Assembly: GCF_014803405.1 (NCBI RefSeq)
Contig: NZ_JACYFG010000006.1
Coordinates: 7,501-71,500, forward strand
Direction: 5' to 3'
Origin: Pelagicoccus enzymogenes
Lineage (GTDB): Bacteria > Verrucomicrobiota > Verrucomicrobiia > Opitutales > Opitutaceae
DNA: 64,000 nt
Positions within the stretch are counted from its first letter, which is position 1; each line of letters opens with the position of its first letter. A program made the translations under genes and the position numbers. A model generated the notes under the pieces. It saw nothing but the letters and a program-made list of their open reading frames with translations. It did no database searches and was not told the origin of the DNA. Below are positions 6,622 to 60,819 of the stretch, piece after piece.

Positions 6622-8052
6622 CTATTCGACAGCGCCTCTACGAGCGCCAAGCTCCCTCTCGATTTGCGTCAAAGTCGCCGTCCTCAGAGGGTAAAATACC
6701 AACGCAACGATCGCCGCAGCAGCTAAGCCCGCGGGAAAGAGCGAAAACAAAACGCGAATGCCCATCATCGCAGCTGGCCCTTGCTCCACGCCGGCTTCAA
6801 AGCCGACTAGCCCAAGATACCAGCCTGCCATAGCTCCTCCGATAGCCAGTCCCATCTTTTGGGCGAACAGAGCTGCGGAGAAAACCAAACCAGTCGACCT
6901 GCGCCCCCAACGCCACTCCCCATAGTCCGCAACGTCAGCGTACATCGACCAAACTAGCGGCACGGTCGGTCCCGCGAGGAAGCCGCCCATCACGCTAAGG
7001 CCAAGCATCAGCCAAAACTGATCAGGCGGAGTGACGAAGAACAGCGCCATGGAAGCTGCATTGGCCAGAGAGAACCAGATCATTATCGAACGCTTCTCGA
7101 AGCGAGCCGCCAAAGGCTTAGACAACCACACGCCCGCAATCAACCCAAGCATACCGGAGGTCATTACTATACTGGTCTGGTCGAATATGAGAAACATCGG
7201 CGCATCCGATGCTCCCACGTAGTACTTGAAGTAGTACACTGTTGCCGCCCCGCGGGCCGCCACGTTCGCCAAAGTGAATACAGCGACGAAAAACAGGATC
7301 AACCAAGGCCGGTTCTTGACCAATGCGCGCAAGTCTTCTCCAAGGTTATTTTTCTGGCTAGCCGGAGGCTGTACCCGCTCCCTCGTTCCCTTGAAGGTGA
7401 TGAAGAACATCACCACGGAAACCGCGGCGAAGATCGCCATCGTCACTTGAAATCCAAACGCCTCGTTGTCCTCTCCCCCTATCGCATAAACCAAAGGGCG
7501 TACGAACATCGAGATGAGAAGACCACCCGCAAAGGCTCCAAAAAAGCGATAGCTGGAGACCAGTGTCCGTTCCGTAGAGGATGGCGATATTACGCCAAGC
7601 AAAGCCGAGTACGGGATATTGATAGCCGTGTAGGCCAGCATCATCGCGATGTAGGTGGCATACGCATAGGCGAGCTTTCCCTGTTCGCTGATATCGGGCA
7701 CCACAAACATCAAGTATCCAATCATCCCATACGGAATGGCCATCCACAACAGGTACGGCCGAAACTTCCCCCAACGGCTGTTGGTGCGATCCGAGATGAC
7801 GCCCATAATCGGATCGCTGAACATGTCGACCACCCGAGCCGCCAAAAATATACTCCCCGCCGCTGCGGGACCAATACCGAAAACGTCGGTGTAGTAGTAC
7901 AGCAAGAACAGGTTAAAGGTCTGAAAGAAGAAGTTCGACGCGGTATCTCCCAAGCCGTAACTCAGCTTTTCAGAAACGCTAAGTCGTTCGCCATCTTTCG
8001 AGCCGGAATTTAGTAGTTCCGATTTCGATACACCTTTTGTGGCAGTCGTCAT
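6622..8052 (-). CDS. GPH-family sugar:cation symporter (MFS)
   Basis: A 476-residue inner-membrane protein with twelve predicted helices. The N-terminus (LSYGLGDTASNFFFQTFNLFLLYYYTDVFG) and the segments DPIMGVISDRTNSRWGKFRP and YADVADYGEWRWGRRSTGL are diagnostic of the glycoside-pentoside-hexuronide:cation symporters (MelB/XynP-like). These bring in oligosaccharides or glycosides with a proton or sodium ion. ATG 8052 was chosen; the frame is open 20 codons upstream without any conserved sequence. The gene forms an operon with the hydrolase downstream and is cut off from the TonB receptor upstream by a strong terminator, so it needs its own promoter in 8053-8150. Confidence 0.9.
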   Translation of the reverse strand: MTTATKGVSKSELLNSGSKDGERLSVSEKLSYGLGDTASNFFFQTFNLFLLYYYTDVFGIGPAAAGSIFLAARVVDMFSDPIMGVISDRTNSRWGKFRPYLLWMAIPYGMIGYLMFVVPDISEQGKLAYAYATYIAMMLAYTAINIPYSALLGVISPSSTERTLVSSYRFFGAFAGGLLISMFVRPLVYAIGGEDNEAFGFQVTMAIFAAVSVVMFFITFKGTRERVQPPASQKNNLGEDLRALVKNRPWLILFFVAVFTLANVAARGAATVYYFKYYVGASDAPMFLIFDQTSIVMTSGMLGLIAGVWLSKPLAARFEKRSIMIWFSLANAASMALFFVTPPDQFWLMLGLSVMGGFLAGPTVPLVWSMYADVADYGEWRWGRRSTGLVFSAALFAQKMGLAIGGAMAGWYLGLVGFEAGVEQGPAAMMGIRVLFSLFPAGLAAAAIVALVFYPLRTATLTQIERELGARRGAVE

Positions 8053-49945: not shown

Positions 49946-50602
49946 TTAGAAGTACTCAGCCAGCTCGGCGGCTGTCCATGCGCCCCTCGAACCGATATCA
50001 GCACGGATCGTAGCGACCTGCTCTTCGGTGACTTCGCCCGCGCCATTGTCCCAAGATCCGCGGATATGAGAGATGACGGCTGCGATTTCAGCATCGTTGA
50101 GCACTGCCCCAAACGCTGGCATCGCCCCGTTGTAGGTGTTGCCCTTGACTTGGATCTCTCCGCCTAGGCCATGGAGCAAAACCTTGATCGAGATCTCCGG
50201 AGCTCCGGTAACCCACTCCGAGCCGGCAAGCGGCGGGAAAGCTCCTGGCAAGCCTTGGCCCTGACCTTGGTGGCACGCCACGCATTGCTGGGCGTAAATC
50301 TTGGAACCGTCGTAGACGATCGGACCTTCTGGCTCCTTGGGGCGGTTTTTGTAAGCCTCCATCGCGGCGATGTGCTGGCGATCTGCAAGTACGCTCGTTG
50401 AGTCGTACTCCGCGAAGTAGCGGCGTTGATAGAACCAAGCGAAAACGAAAACGATGATCAGGGCAGCGGCTGTAAAAAAGGCAACCGGCGACCCTTCGAT
50501 TCGCTTGCGACGAAGCTGGGCATGCACCCGCAAAACGCTCTCGTCGCTCGCCTTGCTAGCGTCGACTCCTGGCAAATGTGGTTGTTCTTGATCGTCTTGC
50601 AT
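49946..50602 (-). CDS. Membrane-anchored monoheme cytochrome c, last gene of the complex III operon
   Basis: 218 residues. A hydrophilic N-terminus, one membrane helix (about 40-60, AFFTAAALIIVFVFAWFY) and a periplasmic class-I cytochrome domain with CVACHQGQGQG and the Met ligand candidate in GAMPAFG. It matches the cytochrome domain of caa3/CcoP-like subunits but has only one haem. ATG 50602 overlaps the preceding stop in TGATG; GTG 50605 is an alternative start. It should accept electrons from the CcoO-like protein or complex III and hand them to an oxidase; this is inferred from position. Confidence 0.85.
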   Translation of the reverse strand: MQDDQEQPHLPGVDASKASDESVLRVHAQLRRKRIEGSPVAFFTAAALIIVFVFAWFYQRRYFAEYDSTSVLADRQHIAAMEAYKNRPKEPEGPIVYDGSKIYAQQCVACHQGQGQGLPGAFPPLAGSEWVTGAPEISIKVLLHGLGGEIQVKGNTYNGAMPAFGAVLNDAEIAAVISHIRGSWDNGAGEVTEEQVATIRADIGSRGAWTAAELAEYF

Positions 50603-51228
50603 CACTTGTAGGCGAGCTTTTCAGGCGTGGGCGCCTCTTCAATTTCGTAGGCTTGGCTGAGCGCAAGCATGTAGGCCACCAGCGCGTCGGCATCGGCCGA
50701 GGGCACGATTTCGTAACCTTCCTCCACGCGGAACCCTTCTGGAAGATCGAGAGCTCGGTTGGAAGCTTCTCCAACTATCTTTCGCTTCTCGAAGAGGAAC
50801 GCGAAAGGCGGCATGTTGCTTCCTGGAGATGTGATTTCCGGATTGTAGAAATGAAGGTAGTGCCAACCTGCCTCCGTGCGACGGGTTCCGACGTTTGCGA
50901 GGTCAGGGCCAACGCGATTGTAGCCAGTGAATACGGGGCTTTGGTCGATGTAGTCGAGAGGCATGGATTGGCGATCGCCCCAACCTCTTTCGATGTCCGT
51001 ACCCGTTACTGCGATTGTTTGCTGTGTATGACAGTTCACGCATCCCTGTTCTTGGTAGACCTCGCGTCCGCGCAAAGCCAACCCCTCGACCAAAGTAGGC
51101 ACGCGATCCGCGCCCTTGCCGATTGGAGATAGATTGCCGCCCTCTTGAATAGGCTTAACCAGCGTCACCGCCCAAGAGAGCGAGACAATGATCAGCACAC
51201 CAATGAAAATGAAAGGACCTCTGTTCAT
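50602..51228 (-). CDS. CcoO-like membrane-anchored monoheme cytochrome c
   Basis: 208 residues. An N-terminal anchor (about 6-25) is followed by a cytochrome c domain that follows the cbb3 subunit II plan: GREVYQEQGCVNCHTQQT (haem site), GPDLANVGTRRTEAGWHYLH, and the Met ligand in SPGSNMPPFAFLF. The haem site is intact, unlike the metal sites of its CcoN-like partner. The start overlaps the CcoN-like stop in ATGA. In cbb3 oxidases this subunit feeds electrons to subunit I; here it may instead relay electrons between complex III and the last cytochrome c. Confidence 0.88.
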   Translation of the reverse strand: MNRGPFIFIGVLIIVSLSWAVTLVKPIQEGGNLSPIGKGADRVPTLVEGLALRGREVYQEQGCVNCHTQQTIAVTGTDIERGWGDRQSMPLDYIDQSPVFTGYNRVGPDLANVGTRRTEAGWHYLHFYNPEITSPGSNMPPFAFLFEKRKIVGEASNRALDLPEGFRVEEGYEIVPSADADALVAYMLALSQAYEIEEAPTPEKLAYK

Positions 51229-52706
51229 GAGTGAGTGTACTCGAGTTCAGGAGCTGGCTCGATCAAGTCAGCTGATTGCTCCTTTTCAGTACGAGGAGAG
51301 AGAAGTATCCAAACGAAAGATACAGCGTAAGCGAAGTTGCCAATGGCAAACATCACTGAACCGATCGTCGTGAGGAAGAGGTAAGTGTCGGTGCTCTTGA
51401 GAATTGCGATCGTATCCGCGTCGCTTCCGTTGAGCAGCGCTCCATGGGCCCAACCTCCGTAAACGAGGCTGACCGTAACCAGGAAGATACCGAGGCCCTG
51501 AACCCAAAATTGAAGGTCCGCCAAAGACGGGTTCGGCAGTTCCTTGTTCAGAAGGCGCGGGAGTATGTAGTAAACCATACCCGTGAAGGCCATGCCCGCA
51601 AAACCAACCAAGAACAAGTAGCGAACCCCATCGTTGTATTGGCTGAACTGCGTCATTTCCTGAACTTCACGCAAAGCTCCCAAGATAGTGAGAACCGTTG
51701 CGACGATGAAGGCCACGACCGCGTAGAAAACGTAACGTACCGAAAGCGTGTCCCATATTTTCGAGAAACTGGAGAACAAGCTCGAGAGGAACTGCATGGT
51801 GAAGACCGAGAGCGGAAGGAACAACCCGAAGCTTGCCACCACCCCAACGGAGGCAATCCACGCTGGGAACGGTCCGTTCACCAGAGAAGCAAGACCTGCG
51901 GCACTGGAAAACAGAATCCAGCTCCAAAATGCGATACCCGACTGACGATAGCCTACGATGTGCTGACCGAGAGCCTTCGGGATGAGGTAATAGATCGTCG
52001 CGAAGGCGAAAGGCGCGACAACCAAACCGAGGAGGTTGCCACCGAACCAAGCAGCAATGACGCTTTGGAAAACGCCTTGGGCAGGCATGCAAAAGATCAT
52101 CACCTGGGCGACGGTGTAAATCCAAACGAAGCAGAACACCCCCGCCAAGGCATACCATTGGGAAGCGAAGGATGAACGGTAGGCGCGAGCCTTGAACGCC
52201 AACAAAATCCAAATGCCTAGTCCGATGAATGCAGCGAAAAGAAACGGCGCCGCGTAAGTCGGAAATTCCAGCATGCGGTAAGGATTTTGGTCTCCCTTGA
52301 AAATTCCGAATAGGCCGATGATAACCGCGAGGTTCCAAGCGCCCGTCGAGATGGCCAGCACCGCGCTGTTGCCGCTGGGACGGCCGCCCAAACGAGCGAT
52401 GATCCATGCGACGCAAGCGAGGCCTGCGTTGAAAAGCCACCCATATACCAAGGCGTTCCAAAACGCGGGGTAAGCCTTGCCGTAGGTCAGCCAGCCGTAT
52501 TCCGCCAAGTAAGTCGGAGAGTGCAGCTTGACCGAGACGATCAGTCCGAGCAAGGACGCGACGAGCAGCCAGAAAACTGAGCCCTTGATCAATCCCAGCA
52601 CCGCGAAGCGCATGGAGGAGTCGATCGTCTGTTCCCTTTCGCGCTGCGATCCATCGCCTTCCAGACTTGGAAAGATCGATGAAAAGAGGTTGCAGATCAA
52701 ATTCAT
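51225..52706 (-). CDS. CcoN-like haem-copper oxidase subunit I homologue lacking all metal ligands
   Basis: 493 residues, about twelve membrane helices, and clear similarity in register to cbb3 subunit I. The six histidines expected there are absent. Low-spin haem b helix: PAFWNALVYG has F82 for His. CuB: AWFGGNLLG has G223; the His pair of the GPHHLHY segment is A273-S274 in AAGLASLVN. The pair GHVH that binds haem b3 and haem b is G360-V361-R362-Y363. Only four His occur in the whole protein (62, 249, 421, 492), none at these places. It should therefore bind no haem b or copper and not reduce oxygen. It probably serves as membrane scaffold for the CcoO-like subunit; any proton role is unknown. 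Confidence 0.88.
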   Translation of the reverse strand: MNLICNLFSSIFPSLEGDGSQREREQTIDSSMRFAVLGLIKGSVFWLLVASLLGLIVSVKLHSPTYLAEYGWLTYGKAYPAFWNALVYGWLFNAGLACVAWIIARLGGRPSGNSAVLAISTGAWNLAVIIGLFGIFKGDQNPYRMLEFPTYAAPFLFAAFIGLGIWILLAFKARAYRSSFASQWYALAGVFCFVWIYTVAQVMIFCMPAQGVFQSVIAAWFGGNLLGLVVAPFAFATIYYLIPKALGQHIVGYRQSGIAFWSWILFSSAAGLASLVNGPFPAWIASVGVVASFGLFLPLSVFTMQFLSSLFSSFSKIWDTLSVRYVFYAVVAFIVATVLTILGALREVQEMTQFSQYNDGVRYLFLVGFAGMAFTGMVYYILPRLLNKELPNPSLADLQFWVQGLGIFLVTVSLVYGGWAHGALLNGSDADTIAILKSTDTYLFLTTIGSVMFAIGNFAYAVSFVWILLSPRTEKEQSADLIEPAPELEYTHS

Positions 52707-52749: not shown

Positions 52750-53034
52750 CTACTTGGCGTTTTCGGCGATCACGAGTTCCTTTGCTCGTTCGATGGAGAG
52801 GCGAACCTTCCCGCTTGTCGGGTCGGTTACCTTTGTCGTTGAAAGAAGGGACTCAGCCGCTCCGTTGTGCTCTGCGAGCGTGGTGTCTGGCACGGTGAAC
52901 TTCGAAACTTCCGGCGTCTCGGTCGAGTCGACATAAACCTTGCTGGTGAGGAACCAGAAAAGCAGGAACAAGCCGATGATGGCGACGACGACCGGGAACG
53001 AGCTACGCGATGGTGTGTGCGCTTGAGCAGTCAT
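52750..53034 (-). CDS. Small single-helix membrane protein between actF and the CcoN-like gene
   Basis: 94 residues. One membrane helix (about 12-31, FPVVVAIIGLFLLFWFLTSK) is followed by a periplasmic Thr/Ser/Glu-rich part, with a short tail KVRLSIERAKELVIAENA that may pack on a partner. I recognise no family. Many complex III operons carry small extra membrane subunits at this place, so it may be an accessory subunit. ATG 53034 was chosen; a TTG two codons earlier is less likely. It starts ten bases after the actF stop. Confidence 0.75.
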   Translation of the reverse strand: MTAQAHTPSRSSFPVVVAIIGLFLLFWFLTSKVYVDSTETPEVSKFTVPDTTLAEHNGAAESLLSTTKVTDPTSGKVRLSIERAKELVIAENAK

Positions 53035-53044
53035 TTGCAAAAAA

Positions 53045-54277
53045 CTAGTGGTTGTGGTTCAGGCACTCCCCAATGCGAGGGTCGCGGATTGGGATGATCT
53101 TAACCTTGTGGAAGCTGGTCCAGAAAGCCCAAAGCAGGACCCCGGCACCTCCCAGCAGAGCAGCCGCCAACCACAGGAGTCCCAGTGGATGGTGGATGAA
53201 GTCTACCGGATGGTGATGATCCTTGAGAGCTGGGAGAACGTTGAAGATAACGTCGAAAAGCTGCATGAAGAGAATCCAGCACGCCATGAATACCATCGCC
53301 GGAAATTTCGTCTTCAGCGGGAATTGCAGCATGAACAGGAACGGGAAGAGGAAATGACCGAAGATCAGGAACATGGATACGCCGTACCACATGCCCTCCT
53401 CGCGGAAGTTGTACCAAAACGTTTCTTCCGGAATGTTACCGTTCCAGATCAGGAAGTACTGGGAGAAACTGATGTAAGCCCAGAAAACGGTGAACGCGAA
53501 GCAGAGAGTGCTCAAGTCGTGCAAGTGCTTCGTGTTAAAGATCCCCTTGAGGGGGCCCTTCGCGACGAGGAAAGCAGCGACCAAGACAAGCACCGCGAGG
53601 GCTGCTCGCATGGAATTGGCGAAGAACCAAACGCCGAACATGGTGGAGAACCAGTGGTATTCAAGCGACATGATCCAGTCGAAACCGGCCATCGACCACG
53701 TCAGAGCGACCACGACCAAACCTCCCGCTGCATGCTTACGGCTGGAGAAGGTGTGCTCTGCAGAGCCGTCGCTGTCCTGGGAGAAGGAATTGCGACGGAA
53801 GGTGCGGGCGAAGTAGATCCAGGCGCCAAAGGAAATGATGGTACGCGCCCAGAAGCCAAACGGCCCGAACTCGTTCAACCACCAGGTCTTCTTCTGGTAG
53901 AGCACATCCTCGGCAACCTTGTGGCCGTGAACGACAGCGTCCTCGTTCATCCAGATCCAGATGGTGCCCTGGTCCTTGAGGTAGGTGATTGCGAAGAGCG
54001 GGATGAAGAGCACCGCCATCCAAGGAAGGGCGGCGAGGAAGTTCTCAGCCTGGCGACGGATCACCGTAGACCAGTAGGCGTCGAAAATATGGTGAATCAT
54101 CACCAAGAAAAGCATTCCGATGGTGATCGACGTCGTGAAGATCATACCGATCAGGTAGCAGAAGGAGGCCATCCGCGTGTCGACAAACATGCCGATCAGC
54201 GAGACGATCAGGCCCACGGCCCCGATCATTAGCCACTTAGTTGGGTTCGGAAGCGAAGCGTCGCGTTCTGCACTCAT
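53045..54277 (-). CDS. actF: Alternative complex III membrane subunit ActF
   Basis: 410 residues with about ten membrane helices, an NrfD-like protein that resembles ActC but is shorter. Typical family segments include FLAALPWMAVLFIPLF, WSMAGFDWIMSLEYHWFSTMFGVWFFANSM and FWAYISFSQYFLIWNGNIPEE. In ACIII structures ActF sits beside ActC and is thought to help with proton conduction. The start overlaps the actE stop in ATGA. Confidence 0.93.
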   Translation of the reverse strand: MSAERDASLPNPTKWLMIGAVGLIVSLIGMFVDTRMASFCYLIGMIFTTSITIGMLFLVMIHHIFDAYWSTVIRRQAENFLAALPWMAVLFIPLFAITYLKDQGTIWIWMNEDAVVHGHKVAEDVLYQKKTWWLNEFGPFGFWARTIISFGAWIYFARTFRRNSFSQDSDGSAEHTFSSRKHAAGGLVVVALTWSMAGFDWIMSLEYHWFSTMFGVWFFANSMRAALAVLVLVAAFLVAKGPLKGIFNTKHLHDLSTLCFAFTVFWAYISFSQYFLIWNGNIPEETFWYNFREEGMWYGVSMFLIFGHFLFPFLFMLQFPLKTKFPAMVFMACWILFMQLFDVIFNVLPALKDHHHPVDFIHHPLGLLWLAAALLGGAGVLLWAFWTSFHKVKIIPIRDPRIGECLNHNH

Positions 54278-54888
54278 AGTCCTAGTTCCTCCTTGCTAGC
54301 AGGAGTTAAATCTTTGGCGGAGCCGTTCGCGGCGCGCTGCAGGGCGCGGACGTAGAGAACGACGTTCCAACGGTCTTCGACCGAAAGCTTTTCCTTGTAT
54401 CCGTACATGCGACCGCTGCGGCTTCCATGACCGATGTAATGGAAGATCTCGCCGTCGGCCATGTCCGTGTAGGGAGCGGCCGTCAAATTCGCGATCGCCG
54501 TCATGCCGAAAGCCGCCGTGCGGCCATTGCCGTCACCTGCAGCCCCATGACAAGGGGTGCAGTAGATTTGGTAGCGTTCCTCGCCGCGCTCCATGGCGGC
54601 TTGGTTCACCTCGATCGGAAAACCATTGCCGTAAGCCTCACCCTTTTTGCCAGTCGCCTTGTAGGCATCTGGCTCGAAAGTGCCGCGAGCAACCGTACCA
54701 GGAACCGGCAAACGGTCAGTACGGCCATCCGCGAAGAAAGCGCTTTCCGCCTGCGGATGGTACTTCGGCATGTGATCCATGTCGTCGAAGATCTCGAGCG
54801 GACGCTTTGTTGTCGTTGTGCCTCGGAAACCGAGCACGCTAATCGCCGCGATCACGACGAATGCAAATATCAGGTATACGTAGCGCAT
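54274..54888 (-). CDS. actE: Alternative complex III monoheme cytochrome ActE
   Basis: 204 residues. An N-terminal hydrophobic segment (about 1-22) and a cytochrome c domain with YQIYCTPCHGAAGDGNG. The lead sequence FDDMDHMPKYHPQAES and FPIEVNQAAMERGEERY are typical of ActE. It receives electrons from the pentaheme ActA and passes them to an oxidase or soluble carrier. ATG 54888 was chosen because the membrane segment starts directly after it; the frame upstream overlaps actD and is not conserved. Confidence 0.93.
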   Translation of the reverse strand: MRYVYLIFAFVVIAAISVLGFRGTTTTKRPLEIFDDMDHMPKYHPQAESAFFADGRTDRLPVPGTVARGTFEPDAYKATGKKGEAYGNGFPIEVNQAAMERGEERYQIYCTPCHGAAGDGNGRTAAFGMTAIANLTAAPYTDMADGEIFHYIGHGSRSGRMYGYKEKLSVEDRWNVVLYVRALQRAANGSAKDLTPASKEELGL

Positions 54889-54892
54889 CTCG

Positions 54893-55423
54893 TTATTTCT
54901 CCATGTCGGATACTTCGACCGGATGCAGACCTTCGATGAAGGTGCGCGTCTTGGCGTCGTCGAACTGTGGATCTTCGGACTCGATGTAGAGGAAGAACTT
55001 GTCGTCGGACATTTCCGCCACCTTGTCGGCCTTGAGCGCCGAATGGTAATGCATCGGCAGCTTGTTGAGGATGAACATGCCAATGATCGAAGCAAAGGCT
55101 GAGAAGAGAATGGTAAGCTCGTAGGACACCGGGAAGGCGAAGAACGGGCTGAAGAGCGGCTTGCCGCCGATCAAGATCTTGTAGTCAAACGCGTTGGTAT
55201 AGAAGATCATGCTCATACCGGTGATGAAACCGGTGGTGCCGCCCACGATCGTAAAGCGTGGTACCCATGAGCGCTTGAGGCCCATGGCTCCATCCATGCC
55301 GTGGATCGGGAACGGAGTGATCACGTCCCAACGCTTGAAGCCTGCGTCCCTCACCTTTTCCGCTGCATGCATGATGTCAGCCGGGGTGTCGAACTTAGCG
55401 AGTATTCCAAATTTGTCCGCCAT
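54893..55423 (-). CDS. actD: Alternative complex III subunit ActD (DUF3341)
   Basis: 176 residues of the DUF3341 family. A cytoplasmic N-terminal part (GILAKFDTPADIMHAAEKVRDAG) is followed by two membrane helices (about 58-80, 100-122) around FSPFFAFPVSYELTIL. It ends in a short acidic segment. ActD is a small membrane subunit with no cofactor. The actC gene ends 25 bases upstream and actE starts 4 bases downstream. Confidence 0.93.
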   Translation of the reverse strand: MADKFGILAKFDTPADIMHAAEKVRDAGFKRWDVITPFPIHGMDGAMGLKRSWVPRFTIVGGTTGFITGMSMIFYTNAFDYKILIGGKPLFSPFFAFPVSYELTILFSAFASIIGMFILNKLPMHYHSALKADKVAEMSDDKFFLYIESEDPQFDDAKTRTFIEGLHPVEVSDMEK

Positions 55424-55448: not shown

Positions 55449-56863
<1,415 letters not shown>

Positions 56864-56864
<1 letters not shown>

Positions 56865-59800
56865 TAGTGGTGTCCTCCTTCGCTGTCAGAATGGGAGTCA
56901 TGGGAATCGTGTGAAACACTCGCCTTCGGCGCCTTCGCCTTGTACTCCTTCTTGGAGAGAGGCATGTCGTGGTAATCCGGCATCTCTGGATTCGGATTGC
57001 GGATGCGAGCCATGAACGTGGTGCGTGGTCGCGTGTTCAAGTAACCGAGGAGCGAATACGTACGCTCGTTTTCGCGCAGTTGCGAAACGCGGCTGTTCGC
57101 GTCCTTCAAGTCACCAAATACGATGGCATCAGTCGGACAAGCTTGCTCGCAGGCAACCTTGATGGCACCGTCGCGAACGCGGACGTCATCGCTGTCGCCA
57201 GCCTTGGCCTGTTGGGCGATCTTAGCTTGGTTGATACGCTGTACGCAGAAAGTACACTTTTCCATCACGCCGCGCATGCGCACGGATACGTCTGGATTCT
57301 GCGCCATCTGCACAAGCTCGGGCATTCCCTTAGGAGCGAGCGGCCCCAGGTAAAGCTTGTCCAGCTCGCGCTGCTGGTAATCGAAGAAGTTGAAGCGGCG
57401 AACCTTGTAAGGACAGTTGTTCGCGCAGTAGCGGGTACCGATACAGCGGTTGTACGCCATGGCGTTGAGACCTTCTTCGTCGTGAACCGTCGCATTAACT
57501 GGGCAAACCGTCTCACAAGGAGCAGTCTCACACTGCATACAGGCGATTGGCTGGAGAGAAACCTGCGGATCCTCTGGGATCTCGGTATTGTCCTTGGCTC
57601 CAGAGGAGAAGTAACGGTCGAGGCGGATCCAGTGCATTTCGCGTCCGCGACGCACTTGGTCGCGACCTACGATAGGAATGTTGTTTTCGCTCTGACACGC
57701 AATTACGCAGGAGTTACAGCCTGTGCACACGTTCAGATCGATGCTCATCCCCCACTGGTGAATACCGGTGAGATCTGGATGCTCGTACATCGAACCACCG
57801 CGAGGAGTGTCGGTGATCTTCTCCTGCGTCGACATATCCTCCGCCCCTGCGTAAATCGCTGGAGAATGGGATTCCATGCCCATCTTGGATACGAAGTTCT
57901 TGTCCGCTGCGTAGTCGTCGAGATTGGACTCGCGAACGATCGCGCGGCCTTCCATCGACCAGTGCTCCTGCGTTTCCGCGAGCTGGTACTCTGCACCGGT
58001 AAGAGCGAGCGTGGCGTTGGAAACGAAAGCGGCAGCGGAACGGATGGCGTAAGCGCTGAACCCGGAGCCTGTTCCCACGCGGCCGGTCTTTGTACGGCCG
58101 TATCCAAGCGGCAATACAACGGTGTAGTTGTCGAGGCCTGGCTGAATGTGAATGGCTCCCGTGATCTCGCGGCCGTCGACCGAGATGGTGGCGACCGAAG
58201 CGAACTGGCGACCGTCGCGAACCTTGTTCGGATTCTTGCGAGCGACCTGATTCATGGAATCCGGGGCGATGATGTCGAGATCCTTGGCCAACTTCGGGCT
58301 AACGATGATAGCGTTGTCCCAAGTAAGCTTGGTCATGGGGTCTGGACATTCCTGCAACCAACCATTGTTGGCGAAACGACCGTCGTCCACCGAAGCGTCG
58401 TTGAGGAAACGGACTTCGAGGCTGTTCTTGTCCTTGGGAGCCTCAGGAGCCGTGAAGCCCTTGAGCAGGTCGGCGAGCTCCAGTCCTGAAACGTTACTGT
58501 TAGCAGTTTTGTAACCGCCAGACTTGAACCCTTCATTGAGGAAGGCTTCGAATGCACGCTTGCCAGGGGTCCCGTTAGCGGACTGGAAGGTAGCGTAAAC
58601 GAGACTGTAGCCGTCGGCATTCGCCTCGCCTACGAGGCGAGCCAGTACTTCGATTTCGGATACACCATCGAAGAGCGGAAGAATCATCGGCTGCTGAGCC
58701 ACCACGTCGCCGCCGTATGTGCGACCATCGCCCCAAGCTTCTAGGAAATGAGCTTGAGTGATGTGGTAAGTGGACGCTTCGGACGTTTCGTCGGCATAGT
58801 AACCGAGGCGAACGACCTCCTCTACCTTGCCCAACAACCCGGCGAAATCGATACCGGCTGGAGCATTGTAGACAGGGTTGCCACCGAGGATAACGAGCGA
58901 GTTGACAGAACCGGCTTCGATGCTGGAAGCGAGATCCTGAATGGTAGCGGTCTTGCCGTTATCGACGGAGACCAAAGAAACGGTCTTCTTCAGGTTGCCG
59001 AGCTTCTCATTGACCAAAAGTCCCAGAGCGTGAGCTTCCGGAGAGAGGTGCTGCCCAACGAAGACGAGGCTTTCGCCCTTGTGGTTCTTGAGGTCTGCCG
59101 CGCACTTGACCGCCCATTCCTTGGTCCCAGCCTCGAGCTTGTCTGCGAGCGGAGAGAGAACGGACTTGAGAGCGTTGCCCTCGACGCCGAGGTCGAGTTC
59201 AAGAGCGATCGCCGCAAGGAAAGAAACCATCTGGCTCGACGCAAGTCGCTTGCGGTGGTCGGCCATGGCGCCGGTGAGCGAGAAGTTGCTCTCCACCGAG
59301 TAAAGACGATTCATCTCGTCCTTGCTGGAGCGAACGCGACGTCCGTCGGCGAACTGCTTGGAGAACTGCACCGCCCCCTGCTCTTCGTCTAGGAAGTCGG
59401 CGTCAACCGCGAGGATGCGGGAAGCCTTGGACAGGTCATACTTTGGCTGAAGAGAGGCGTTGCCGGTGACCTTGGCGGCCGCGATGCCCGCGTTGGTCGC
59501 GTCGATCGCGTCGTATTCAGCCCAAGTCGCTTGCGGGAAGGCCTTGAGGAAGGCTTGCTTCAGGCGAAGGCGGGTGGGAGAGGAAGAGCTTTCAGCGAGA
59601 ACCGCGACACCCTTGCCGTTGGACGATGCGTACTTCTTGTTGAGGGAAGCGAGCAAGTCATTGACGTCCGCGTTGCTGATTTTGGCAGAACCCTTGGTGT
59701 GGGCCGTGGCGCGATCAGGATCGTAGAGATCGAGGATGGCTGCTTGAGCCTTGCGAGTCGTGCCTCCCTTGTAGCCGGGATGGTCGTCGTTGCCTTCAAC

Positions 59801-60166
59801 CTTAGTCGGACGGCCGGTGTGCGTCTCGATGAGAAGCGGAAGCGTTTCGCCACGCAGCGGGAAACCGGTCGCATAGTAGAGAGCCTGACCAGGAATCTGG
59901 TGCTCGGGCATCTTCGAATGCGGGAGGATGTGCGACTCAGGGCGGCGACAGCCGGCAAAGCCGAGACCGCCGATTGCGAAGGACGCCGCCATGATCTTGA
60001 AGAAGTGGCGACGGTCCACCTCGTTCATTTCCGAGGCTTCGGGACCGAACTCGCGCTCGACTTGAGCGAGGAATTCGGGAGATTGCGACAGGTCGTCGAG
60101 GCTGCGCCAGTAGCGCGGGCCAGACAATTCCGCTGTTTCAGGATGTGTATAAGGTGCGCGTTTCAT
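56864..60166 (-). CDS. actB: Alternative complex III iron-sulfur subunit ActB
   Basis: 1100 residues, a fusion. The N-terminus has the Tat-like motif [17 protein letters not shown] followed by a possible lipobox Cys. A molybdopterin-oxidoreductase-like domain without cofactor follows (about 90-720). The ferredoxin-like domain (about 790-1040) has Cys clusters [41 protein letters not shown] and CEQACP, enough for three 4Fe-4S and one 3Fe-4S cluster. It carries electrons from ActC to ActA on the periplasmic side. The start overlaps the actA stop in ATGA. Confidence 0.94.
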
Positions 60167-60819
60167 CGATGGCAGCCTGTGCAGCTTTGAGGAGGAGTGA
60201 TGTTGCGTTCTTCAACAAACTTGAGGCCGTCCTTGATCTGGCCCTGCTTGCCGCCGGGATGTACCCAGTCGAGGTTGAATACTTCGTCGACCGGACGGAG
60301 GACTTCTTCCGGATTGCGGTGGCAGTCGAGACACCAGCCCATGCTCATTGGCTCGGCATGCGAAACGACTTCCATCTCGTTGACCTGCCCATGACATTCC
60401 ACGCAGGAAACGCCGCGCGTCACGTGAGCTTGGTGGCTGAAGTAGACATAATCGGGAACCTGATGAACCCGCTTCCAAGCTACCGGCTCGCCCGTGGCAT
60501 AGCTTTCCCGGATCGGGGCGAGCAACTCGCTGTCCGTCTTGATCATGCTGTGACACTTCATGCAAGTGTCCGCAGCAGGGATGTTGGCAACGTCGGACTT
60601 GTCGACCCCATCGTGACAGTAACGGCAGTCGAGACCGAGCTCGCCTACGTGGAAACTGTGGTCGTAAGGGACCGGCTGAGTTGGCTCGTAGCCGACCCGA
60701 ACGTATTTCGGCGTCACATAATAGGTGATGCCGGCGAGGAGCGTAGTCACGAAGACGAAGACGAAAACAACGATCTTCAGTGGCAACGCGTTCGACCACT
60801 TTGGAAACACTTTAGACAT
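60163..60819 (-). CDS. actA: Alternative complex III pentaheme cytochrome ActA
   Basis: 218 residues. One N-terminal membrane helix (about 14-36) and a periplasmic domain with five haem motifs: CRYCH, CMKCH, CVECH, CLDCH and CTGCH. The five-haem count is the hallmark of ActA. It receives electrons from ActB and gives them to ActE. It is the first recognisable structural gene of the operon; a short gene of unknown function precedes it by 40 bases. Confidence 0.95.
   Translation of the reverse strand: MSKVFPKWSNALPLKIVVFVFVFVTTLLAGITYYVTPKYVRVGYEPTQPVPYDHSFHVGELGLDCRYCHDGVDKSDVANIPAADTCMKCHSMIKTDSELLAPIRESYATGEPVAWKRVHQVPDYVYFSHQAHVTRGVSCVECHGQVNEMEVVSHAEPMSMGWCLDCHRNPEEVLRPVDEVFNLDWVHPGGKQGQIKDGLKFVEERNITPPQSCTGCHR

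Follow-up and report, generated by a model that had tools for sequence, protein, structure and literature searches.

What is a haem-copper oxidase subunit kept for once its metal ligands are gone? This question is raised by a 64,000-nucleotide stretch of Pelagicoccus enzymogenes DNA (contig NZ_JACYFG010000006.1, forward-strand positions 7,501 to 71,500, from a genome of 6.2 Mb; hereafter the window), which encodes at 51225-52706 on the minus strand a 493-residue homologue of CcoN, having the fold of cbb3 oxidase subunit I, with all six His ligands replaced. An earlier note, made from the letters of this stretch, had described the gene as maintained within an operon that also encodes complex III. 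We confirm the operon, and judging by the encoded proteins this complex III is alternative complex III (ACIII), not bc1: the genes run in the order actA-actB-actC-actD-actE-actF-sm96-ccoN-ccoO-ccoP from 60819 down to 49946 on the minus strand, ActA carries five haem c motifs, and ActB to ActF follow in order, ActF being assigned by position and conservation. We consider it probable that a module of ACIII-cbb3 type has turned here into a quinol:cytochrome c reductase, in which the dead CcoN serves as a haem-free anchor for c-type cytochromes.

The identity of the gene is supported by its frame, by Pfam, by PDB sequences and by the predicted fold. It forms a single open frame of 493 codons from an ATG start to a TGA stop, and the closest named relatives of the protein are found in three Pelagicoccus genomes (87-93% identity) and in Verrucomicrobiae bacterium DG1235 (85%). 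Its membership in the COX1/haem-copper superfamily is certain, the homology being above chance: Pfam COX1 (PF00115) matches with an expectation value (E) of 1.4e-35 and 123.5 bits, the cut-off being 34.8, and five cbb3 sequences of the PDB match by sequence at E 1.6e-16 to 2.1e-12. The AlphaFold2 model, computed from an alignment of 94 sequences comprising the window protein and surveyed loci (A1; L077, with a stop in its matched frame, was dropped from 95 rows), reaches a mean predicted local distance difference test score of 92.8 and a predicted template modelling score of 0.92 and shows 12 long helices (282-312 taken as one), as in the 12-helix subunit I fold of the superfamily. Its top structural match is 3mk7_D (Z 50.4, root-mean-square deviation 1.8 Å over 445 residues, 18% identity), and the fold resembles that of the cbb3 CcoN structures 3mk7, 8smr, 6xkw, 9g83 and 9g6b at Z 48.5-50.4 over 445-451 residues.

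Of the six His holding two haems and copper B (CuB) in the superfamily, the window protein retains none. In the sequence alignment to 3mk7_A, H60 is opposite F82 (52461-52463), H207 opposite G223 (52038-52040), H257 and H258 opposite A273 and S274 (51885-51890), and H345 and H347 opposite V361 and Y363 (first and last codon of 51618-51626), all on the minus strand. We take the six His of 3mk7 to be the ligands of haem b, CuB and haem b3, with H60 and H347 presumably binding low-spin haem b and H345 haem b3. In the part of PMC3578206 considered here, H207, H257 and H258 are named as CuB ligands. The four His of the window protein (62, 249, 421 and 492) all lie outside these places. Opposite R57, W203, Y251 and H337 of the chain, which we take to be active-site residues, Y251 being presumably the cross-linked Tyr, the protein has Y79, A219, S267 and Q353. 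It thus differs from cbb3 CcoN at the six ligands and at these four residues, and it scores 94.3 bits against the cut-off of 583.15 of the NCBIfam ccoN equivalog TIGR00780, a score obtained for the window protein and not for ACIII-linked copies with six His. The earlier note's residue list is therefore exact, and so are its count of four His, its frame of 493 codons and its in-register alignment through the helices; the comparison with a CcoN of known structure that it had proposed, run here on 3mk7, recovered no His at the six sites. A sequencing error or frameshift is ruled out because the other seven genomes of the genus also carry non-His residues at the same six sites in intact ccoN copies, and misalignment is ruled out by flanking motifs being in register with the six-His relatives and with the five PDB sequences.

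We discovered that such losses extend far beyond the genus. Our survey covered the phylum of the window, Verrucomicrobiota, together with a close-relative scan beyond it; matches were obtained in 50 of 57 genomes in the relative search (E up to 0.001, a threshold also admitting other oxidase genes), in 256 of 372 genomes of an order-wide draw at E 1e-40 and in 61 of 288 genomes of a phylum draw at E 1e-30. We read 116 distinct copies, and for 111 of them the same stretch also encodes an ActF-like protein; these 111 form a non-random sample, made up of best matches turned into loci and of regions chosen for spread. Calling an ACIII-linked CcoN depleted when it keeps zero to three of the six ligand His, 81 of the 111 copies are depleted (35 with none, 36 with one, seven with two and three with three His), 30 have six, and no copy has four or five. 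Homologues combining ligand loss with neighbouring complex III genes, for which the earlier note had suggested to search, are hence present among the copies read. The aligned core holds 15-21 His in six-His rows versus 1-12 in depleted ones, and the six sites show 59 distinct residue sets across the 81 depleted rows (FEAKVQ, ANSRRW, QQRHQQ or HSQKFI, for example). At the CuB-His site 274, 31 of 73 depleted rows carry Arg or Lys, a residue whose positive charge may stand in for that of the missing metal. Two ACIII-linked copies at class level (L144, 13486-14922, and L145, 1270-2706) read HNQRYH, retaining both low-spin haem b His with the haem b3 and CuB ligands gone, and on this residue pattern represent a possible haem-b-only intermediate. 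Within the phylum, ligand loss is broad, graded and probably repeated, beyond what the earlier note had expected. Six-His sister copies sit in the same type of operon in relatives. Two congeners (G007, L095, and G006, L093) carry a second, six-His ccoNOP besides a depleted ACIII-linked copy; the stretch fetched for L095 has no Act genes, and L093 lies at a contig start.

The depleted gene is under constraint. Against the congeneric loci L005, L006, L007, L008 and L065, the ratio of nonsynonymous to synonymous substitution rates (dN/dS, Nei-Gojobori) of the window ccoN is 0.045, 0.050, 0.079, 0.065 and 0.036, compared with 0.111, 0.077, 0.056, 0.071 and 0.051 for actF and 0.025-0.036 for actC, four of the five pairs giving a lower value for ccoN than for actF; as the dS of ccoN is above 1 in every pair, the ratios are rough. 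Eight other pairs, all depleted, give ccoN ratios of 0.06-0.26. These values speak clearly against neutral drift, purifying selection being strong in the genus, and, rough as they are, they rule out a pseudogene there. With full-length frames in all eight genus genomes and a complete predicted fold, the earlier note's statement that the gene is not decayed stands. CcoN identity among six-His pairs follows ACIII identity (medians 59-77%), while identity between depleted and six-His CcoN has medians of 35-39% across ACIII identities of 55 to 85%, which reads as a burst of CcoN change accompanying or following the loss, with constraint restored afterwards. Within depleted CcoN, many glycines, prolines and aromatics are retained above 90%, and the residues opposite R57, W203, Y251 and H337 persist in 8%, 7%, 1% and 4% of rows, respectively. 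Outside the six ligands, residue 353 (51648-51650) shows the most uniform replacement seen, being His in all 22 six-His rows and Gln in 85% of 73 depleted rows.

The partners of CcoN have kept their haem c motifs. Among the 81 depleted operons, CxxCH is retained in all 81 CcoO and all 80 CcoP found, the conserved Met of CcoP is present in 98% of 80 depleted rows, and all 41 ActA found have five CxxCH motifs (from 62 rows classed as depleted, one of which, L068, is in fact six-His). Since the neighbouring c-type haem motifs stay while the haem b, haem b3 and CuB ligands go, a scaffold or electron-transfer platform fits best among the three uses proposed in the earlier note; the third, a proton route, is less likely, polar residues having been lost. 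We propose a model in which CcoN descends from the catalytic subunit of a cbb3-like oxidase that was co-encoded with ACIII; together they formed a module leading from quinol to oxygen, and relatives still carry its genes with the six His intact. Once another oxidase took over oxygen reduction, the metal sites would have been lost, leaving a CcoN without haem b, haem b3 and CuB that keeps fold and partners and would reduce no oxygen. As a membrane anchor, it would hold CcoO and CcoP beside ActA and ActE, so that both extend the haem c wire of ACIII and electrons would pass from quinol via ActB/ActA and ActE to the haems c of CcoO and CcoP and from there either to soluble cytochrome c or to an oxidase whose genes lie elsewhere, the complex thereby acting as a quinol:cytochrome c reductase. 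We infer the absence of haem from the protein, its physical assembly with ACIII, and the direction and acceptor of the electrons.

Other oxidases are indeed encoded in these genomes. At least two COX1 matches are present in 34/34 genomes with a depleted copy (ligands read) compared to 12/14 with a six-His copy, a contrast alone not significant (Fisher about 0.08) and derived from a count of 57 genomes, nine of which resisted classification. In the order-wide draw, three genomes of genus g40 (97-99% complete) each have a single COX1 match, of six-His strength, the ligands having been read in G046, so the six-His form can be the sole haem-copper oxidase. The window genome additionally encodes an A-type-like oxidase (L001), a fused CcoNO cbb3 oxidase (L002) that has six His in two reads and shows a gap at site 82 in the survey alignment, a third haem-copper gene (L003) and a bd oxidase. 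The L003 subunit I (G000:C12:144828-146174) lies about 1.5 kb from a cytochrome b match and perhaps belongs to a separate cytochrome b/oxidase cluster. Cytochrome b (PF00033) gave no match in 23 of the 34 depleted-copy genomes, nor in six of the eight genus genomes, and in genomes without such a match ACIII may be the only complex III and the only quinol-to-cytochrome c link.

Several observations weigh against our model. The two copies retaining both haem b His (L144, L145) indicate that the term haem-free need not apply to every lineage. In CcoO, three columns weaken between the 29 six-His and the 81 depleted rows: one Met is conserved in 100% of the former and 73% of the latter, a His in 100% and 51%, and a second Met in 90% and 6%, respectively. 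The CcoO of the window genome has kept the first Met and carries Asn in place of the second. In some lineages, CcoO may hence pass electrons differently or no longer at all. A cruder motif, CxxCH followed by MP, is found in 58/81 depleted versus 26/29 six-His CcoO and in 48/80 depleted versus 22/27 six-His CcoP. Taken with the retained motifs, the picture is one of covalent haem c sites persisting while CcoO loosens, perhaps on the side facing the haem b site. Up to seven residues from a ligand in sequence, constraint was not significantly more relaxed than elsewhere (p 0.15). Furthermore, eight drafts of the order-wide draw (50-93% complete, one match being a contig-edge fragment) have one COX1 match of depleted strength, and G382 has two, both of depleted strength; these could reflect missing contigs or the lack of any other oxidase. 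The window genome itself is one of the two genus genomes with a cytochrome b match and may therefore have a complex III besides ACIII.

How often the ligands were lost is answered differently by different genes, all trees being quick searches. A tentative alternative, concerning the history rather than the function, is that ccoN lost its ligands once or a few times and that the depleted gene was then exchanged between ACIII operons; though we would not adopt it, it deserves serious consideration. The 92-row CcoN tree agrees with it, needing a single change and placing the depleted rows on one side of a branch with a Shimodaira-Hasegawa-like approximate likelihood ratio (SH-aLRT) support of 93, and in the 48-row CcoN set, which includes more of the class, a single depleted clade passes the approximately unbiased test (p-AU 0.067), whereas a grouping of the depleted L110 with its six-His genus-mate L122 is rejected (p-AU 0.0039). 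In contrast, the tree of five ACIII proteins (95 rows, 2381 columns, LG+G4) requires 13 changes of the six-His/depleted label, at least 10 of them forced by starred branches, and the ACIII genes of the 48-row set reject a single depleted clade (p-AU 3e-67). The 48-row CcoN tree itself needs three changes, forced by starred branches, the CcoO tree needs seven, at least two being forced, and depleted rows may have been drawn together by long branches. L110 (AHAFMY) and L122 (HHHHHH) share 83% identity in ACIII and 41% in CcoN, and the CcoN of L110 is barely nearer to other depleted rows (42-43% at best), no donor being seen among the depleted rows compared. Because no donor is visible for L110, we lean towards repeated loss over exchange.

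With respect to function, we regard it as unlikely that CcoN still takes part in catalysis by binding a cofactor in a non-classical manner, i.e. haem via other side chains, a quinone or a lipid. The strong purifying selection on the gene speaks for this reading, and for L144 and L145, lacking the haem b3/CuB site, a haem-b-only stage is plausible; but the window protein has only four His, members of the same depleted clade have one (L020) or two (L009), and the multitude of residue sets at the six sites is unlike a conserved new binding site. That CcoN conducts protons or other ions in a manner coupled to ACIII seems improbable to us: the long helices are retained in the predicted model and the polar residues N125, Q183, Y239, Y240, K244, Y379 and R384 are conserved in both sets, but Y267, T231, S256, Y333, S337 and S341, present in at least 95% of 22 six-His rows, fall to 1-26% of 73 depleted rows, and among the switches shared by a depleted majority (at least 60%) the only polar ones are Q353 (85%), Y75 (63%) and S371 (63%). 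That the gene is decaying and merely held by its place in an essential operon through translational coupling is hardly credible, since the 4-base overlap with ccoO, the burst of change in CcoN and two depleted copies with one in-frame stop in the matched frame (G033, G044) are set against dN/dS values that largely refute decay for the genus, the full-length frames, the high-confidence fold and eight positions unchanged across the 94 six-His and depleted sequences of A1.

The remaining genes of the operon all lie on the minus strand. Downstream of ccoN are encoded a CcoO-like mono-haem cytochrome c with its CxxCH present in the translation (50602-51228; Pfam FixO, E 3.2e-22) and a CcoP-like membrane-anchored cytochrome c, its translation having one CxxCH (49946-50605; Pfam Cytochrome_CBB3, E 3.1e-12). 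Upstream are the small membrane protein sm96 (52750-53040), placed by position, and the ActF-like integral membrane subunit (53045-54277), placed by operon position and conserved neighbourhood, both having no Pfam or NCBIfam match; the ActE-like mono-haem cytochrome c (54274-54888; Pfam Cytochrome_CBB3, E 7.1e-11), its start chosen at an internal ATG of a longer listed open reading frame (54274-55095); ActD (54893-55423; Pfam ActD PF11821, E 4.1e-63); the NrfD-like ActC (55449-56864; Pfam NrfD, E 4e-20); ActB, with a molybdopterin-type and an iron-sulphur domain by Pfam and NCBIfam (56864-60166); and ActA, with five CxxCH in its translation (60163-60819). The earlier note had ccoN overlapping its neighbours, which holds for ccoO on the downstream side (four bases) and not upstream, where a 43-base gap separates it from the sm96 gene. 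In most copies read, sm96 lies between actF and ccoN, being absent from some, and is perhaps an ActG-like or CcoQ/CcoH-like linker. In genus g124 (L148, L153, L154), actE-actF-ccoNOP occurs without recognised actABCD upstream (fetched stretch about 10.8 kb in L148 and L153), actD being on a different contig in these genomes, so that the ACIII genes are split.

Several known systems come close to this one. It shares with cbb3 systems the order ccoN-ccoO-ccoP and two partners, CcoO and CcoP, that carry haem c motifs, differing in CcoP having one CxxCH instead of two. The nearest relatives seen with full ligands are the six-His ACIII-linked CcoN of the same order (such as L119, L122 and L124), which share operon and neighbours at 31-38% identity and, unlike the window protein, keep all six His; in G046, no haem-copper gene besides the six-His copy was found. 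A subunit retained after losing haem ligands is also known from another superfamily, in archaeal CydAA', a cytochrome bd relative with one copy having lost them. For other phyla, the parts of PMC5928083 and PMC8552683 considered here describe ACIII-caa3 and ACIII-aa3 supercomplexes of Rhodothermus marinus and Flavobacterium johnsoniae, in which haem c domains bridge ACIII to the oxidase and electrons run from quinol via ActB/ActA and ActE to the oxidase directly or to soluble carriers, ActE being proposed as the point where electrons branch off towards other acceptors; PMC8552683 adds, in the part considered, that ActE is dispensable for aa3 and that electron paths are proposed to split at ActA/ActE. 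As in these supercomplexes, ACIII is tied to an oxidase module in the window, here known from gene neighbourhood, whereas their oxidases are A-type and the same parts of both papers describe no metal-free partner. In Nitrospina, the part of PMC3578206 considered reports odd residues around CuB (position 203 and neighbours of His207), the ligands not being lost. Among the matches listed from open-access full texts in PubMed Central, the literature covered, we found no report of a ligand-free CcoN beside ACIII; subscription papers are outside this scope.

The finding has a practical consequence: because the Pfam COX1 model accepts the window protein and the depleted copies listed above its cut-off, profile-based annotation would count depleted copies as oxidases, and predictions of oxygen respiration made from them would be wrong. 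The natural series, running from six His through the haem b pair and a single His to none, could be used to separate structural from catalytic constraint, and the system offers a way to learn how ACIII passes electrons on. For the phylum as a whole, the chances appear evenly balanced that Verrucomicrobiota repeatedly converted ACIII-cbb3 modules into reductases, with the emptied CcoN as a conserved haem-free docking subunit and a widespread, recurrent class of pseudo-oxidases as the result. Metal ligands are what defines subunit I of the haem-copper oxidases. Its retention under selection in a large lineage that has lost them would demonstrate an independent function of the scaffold.

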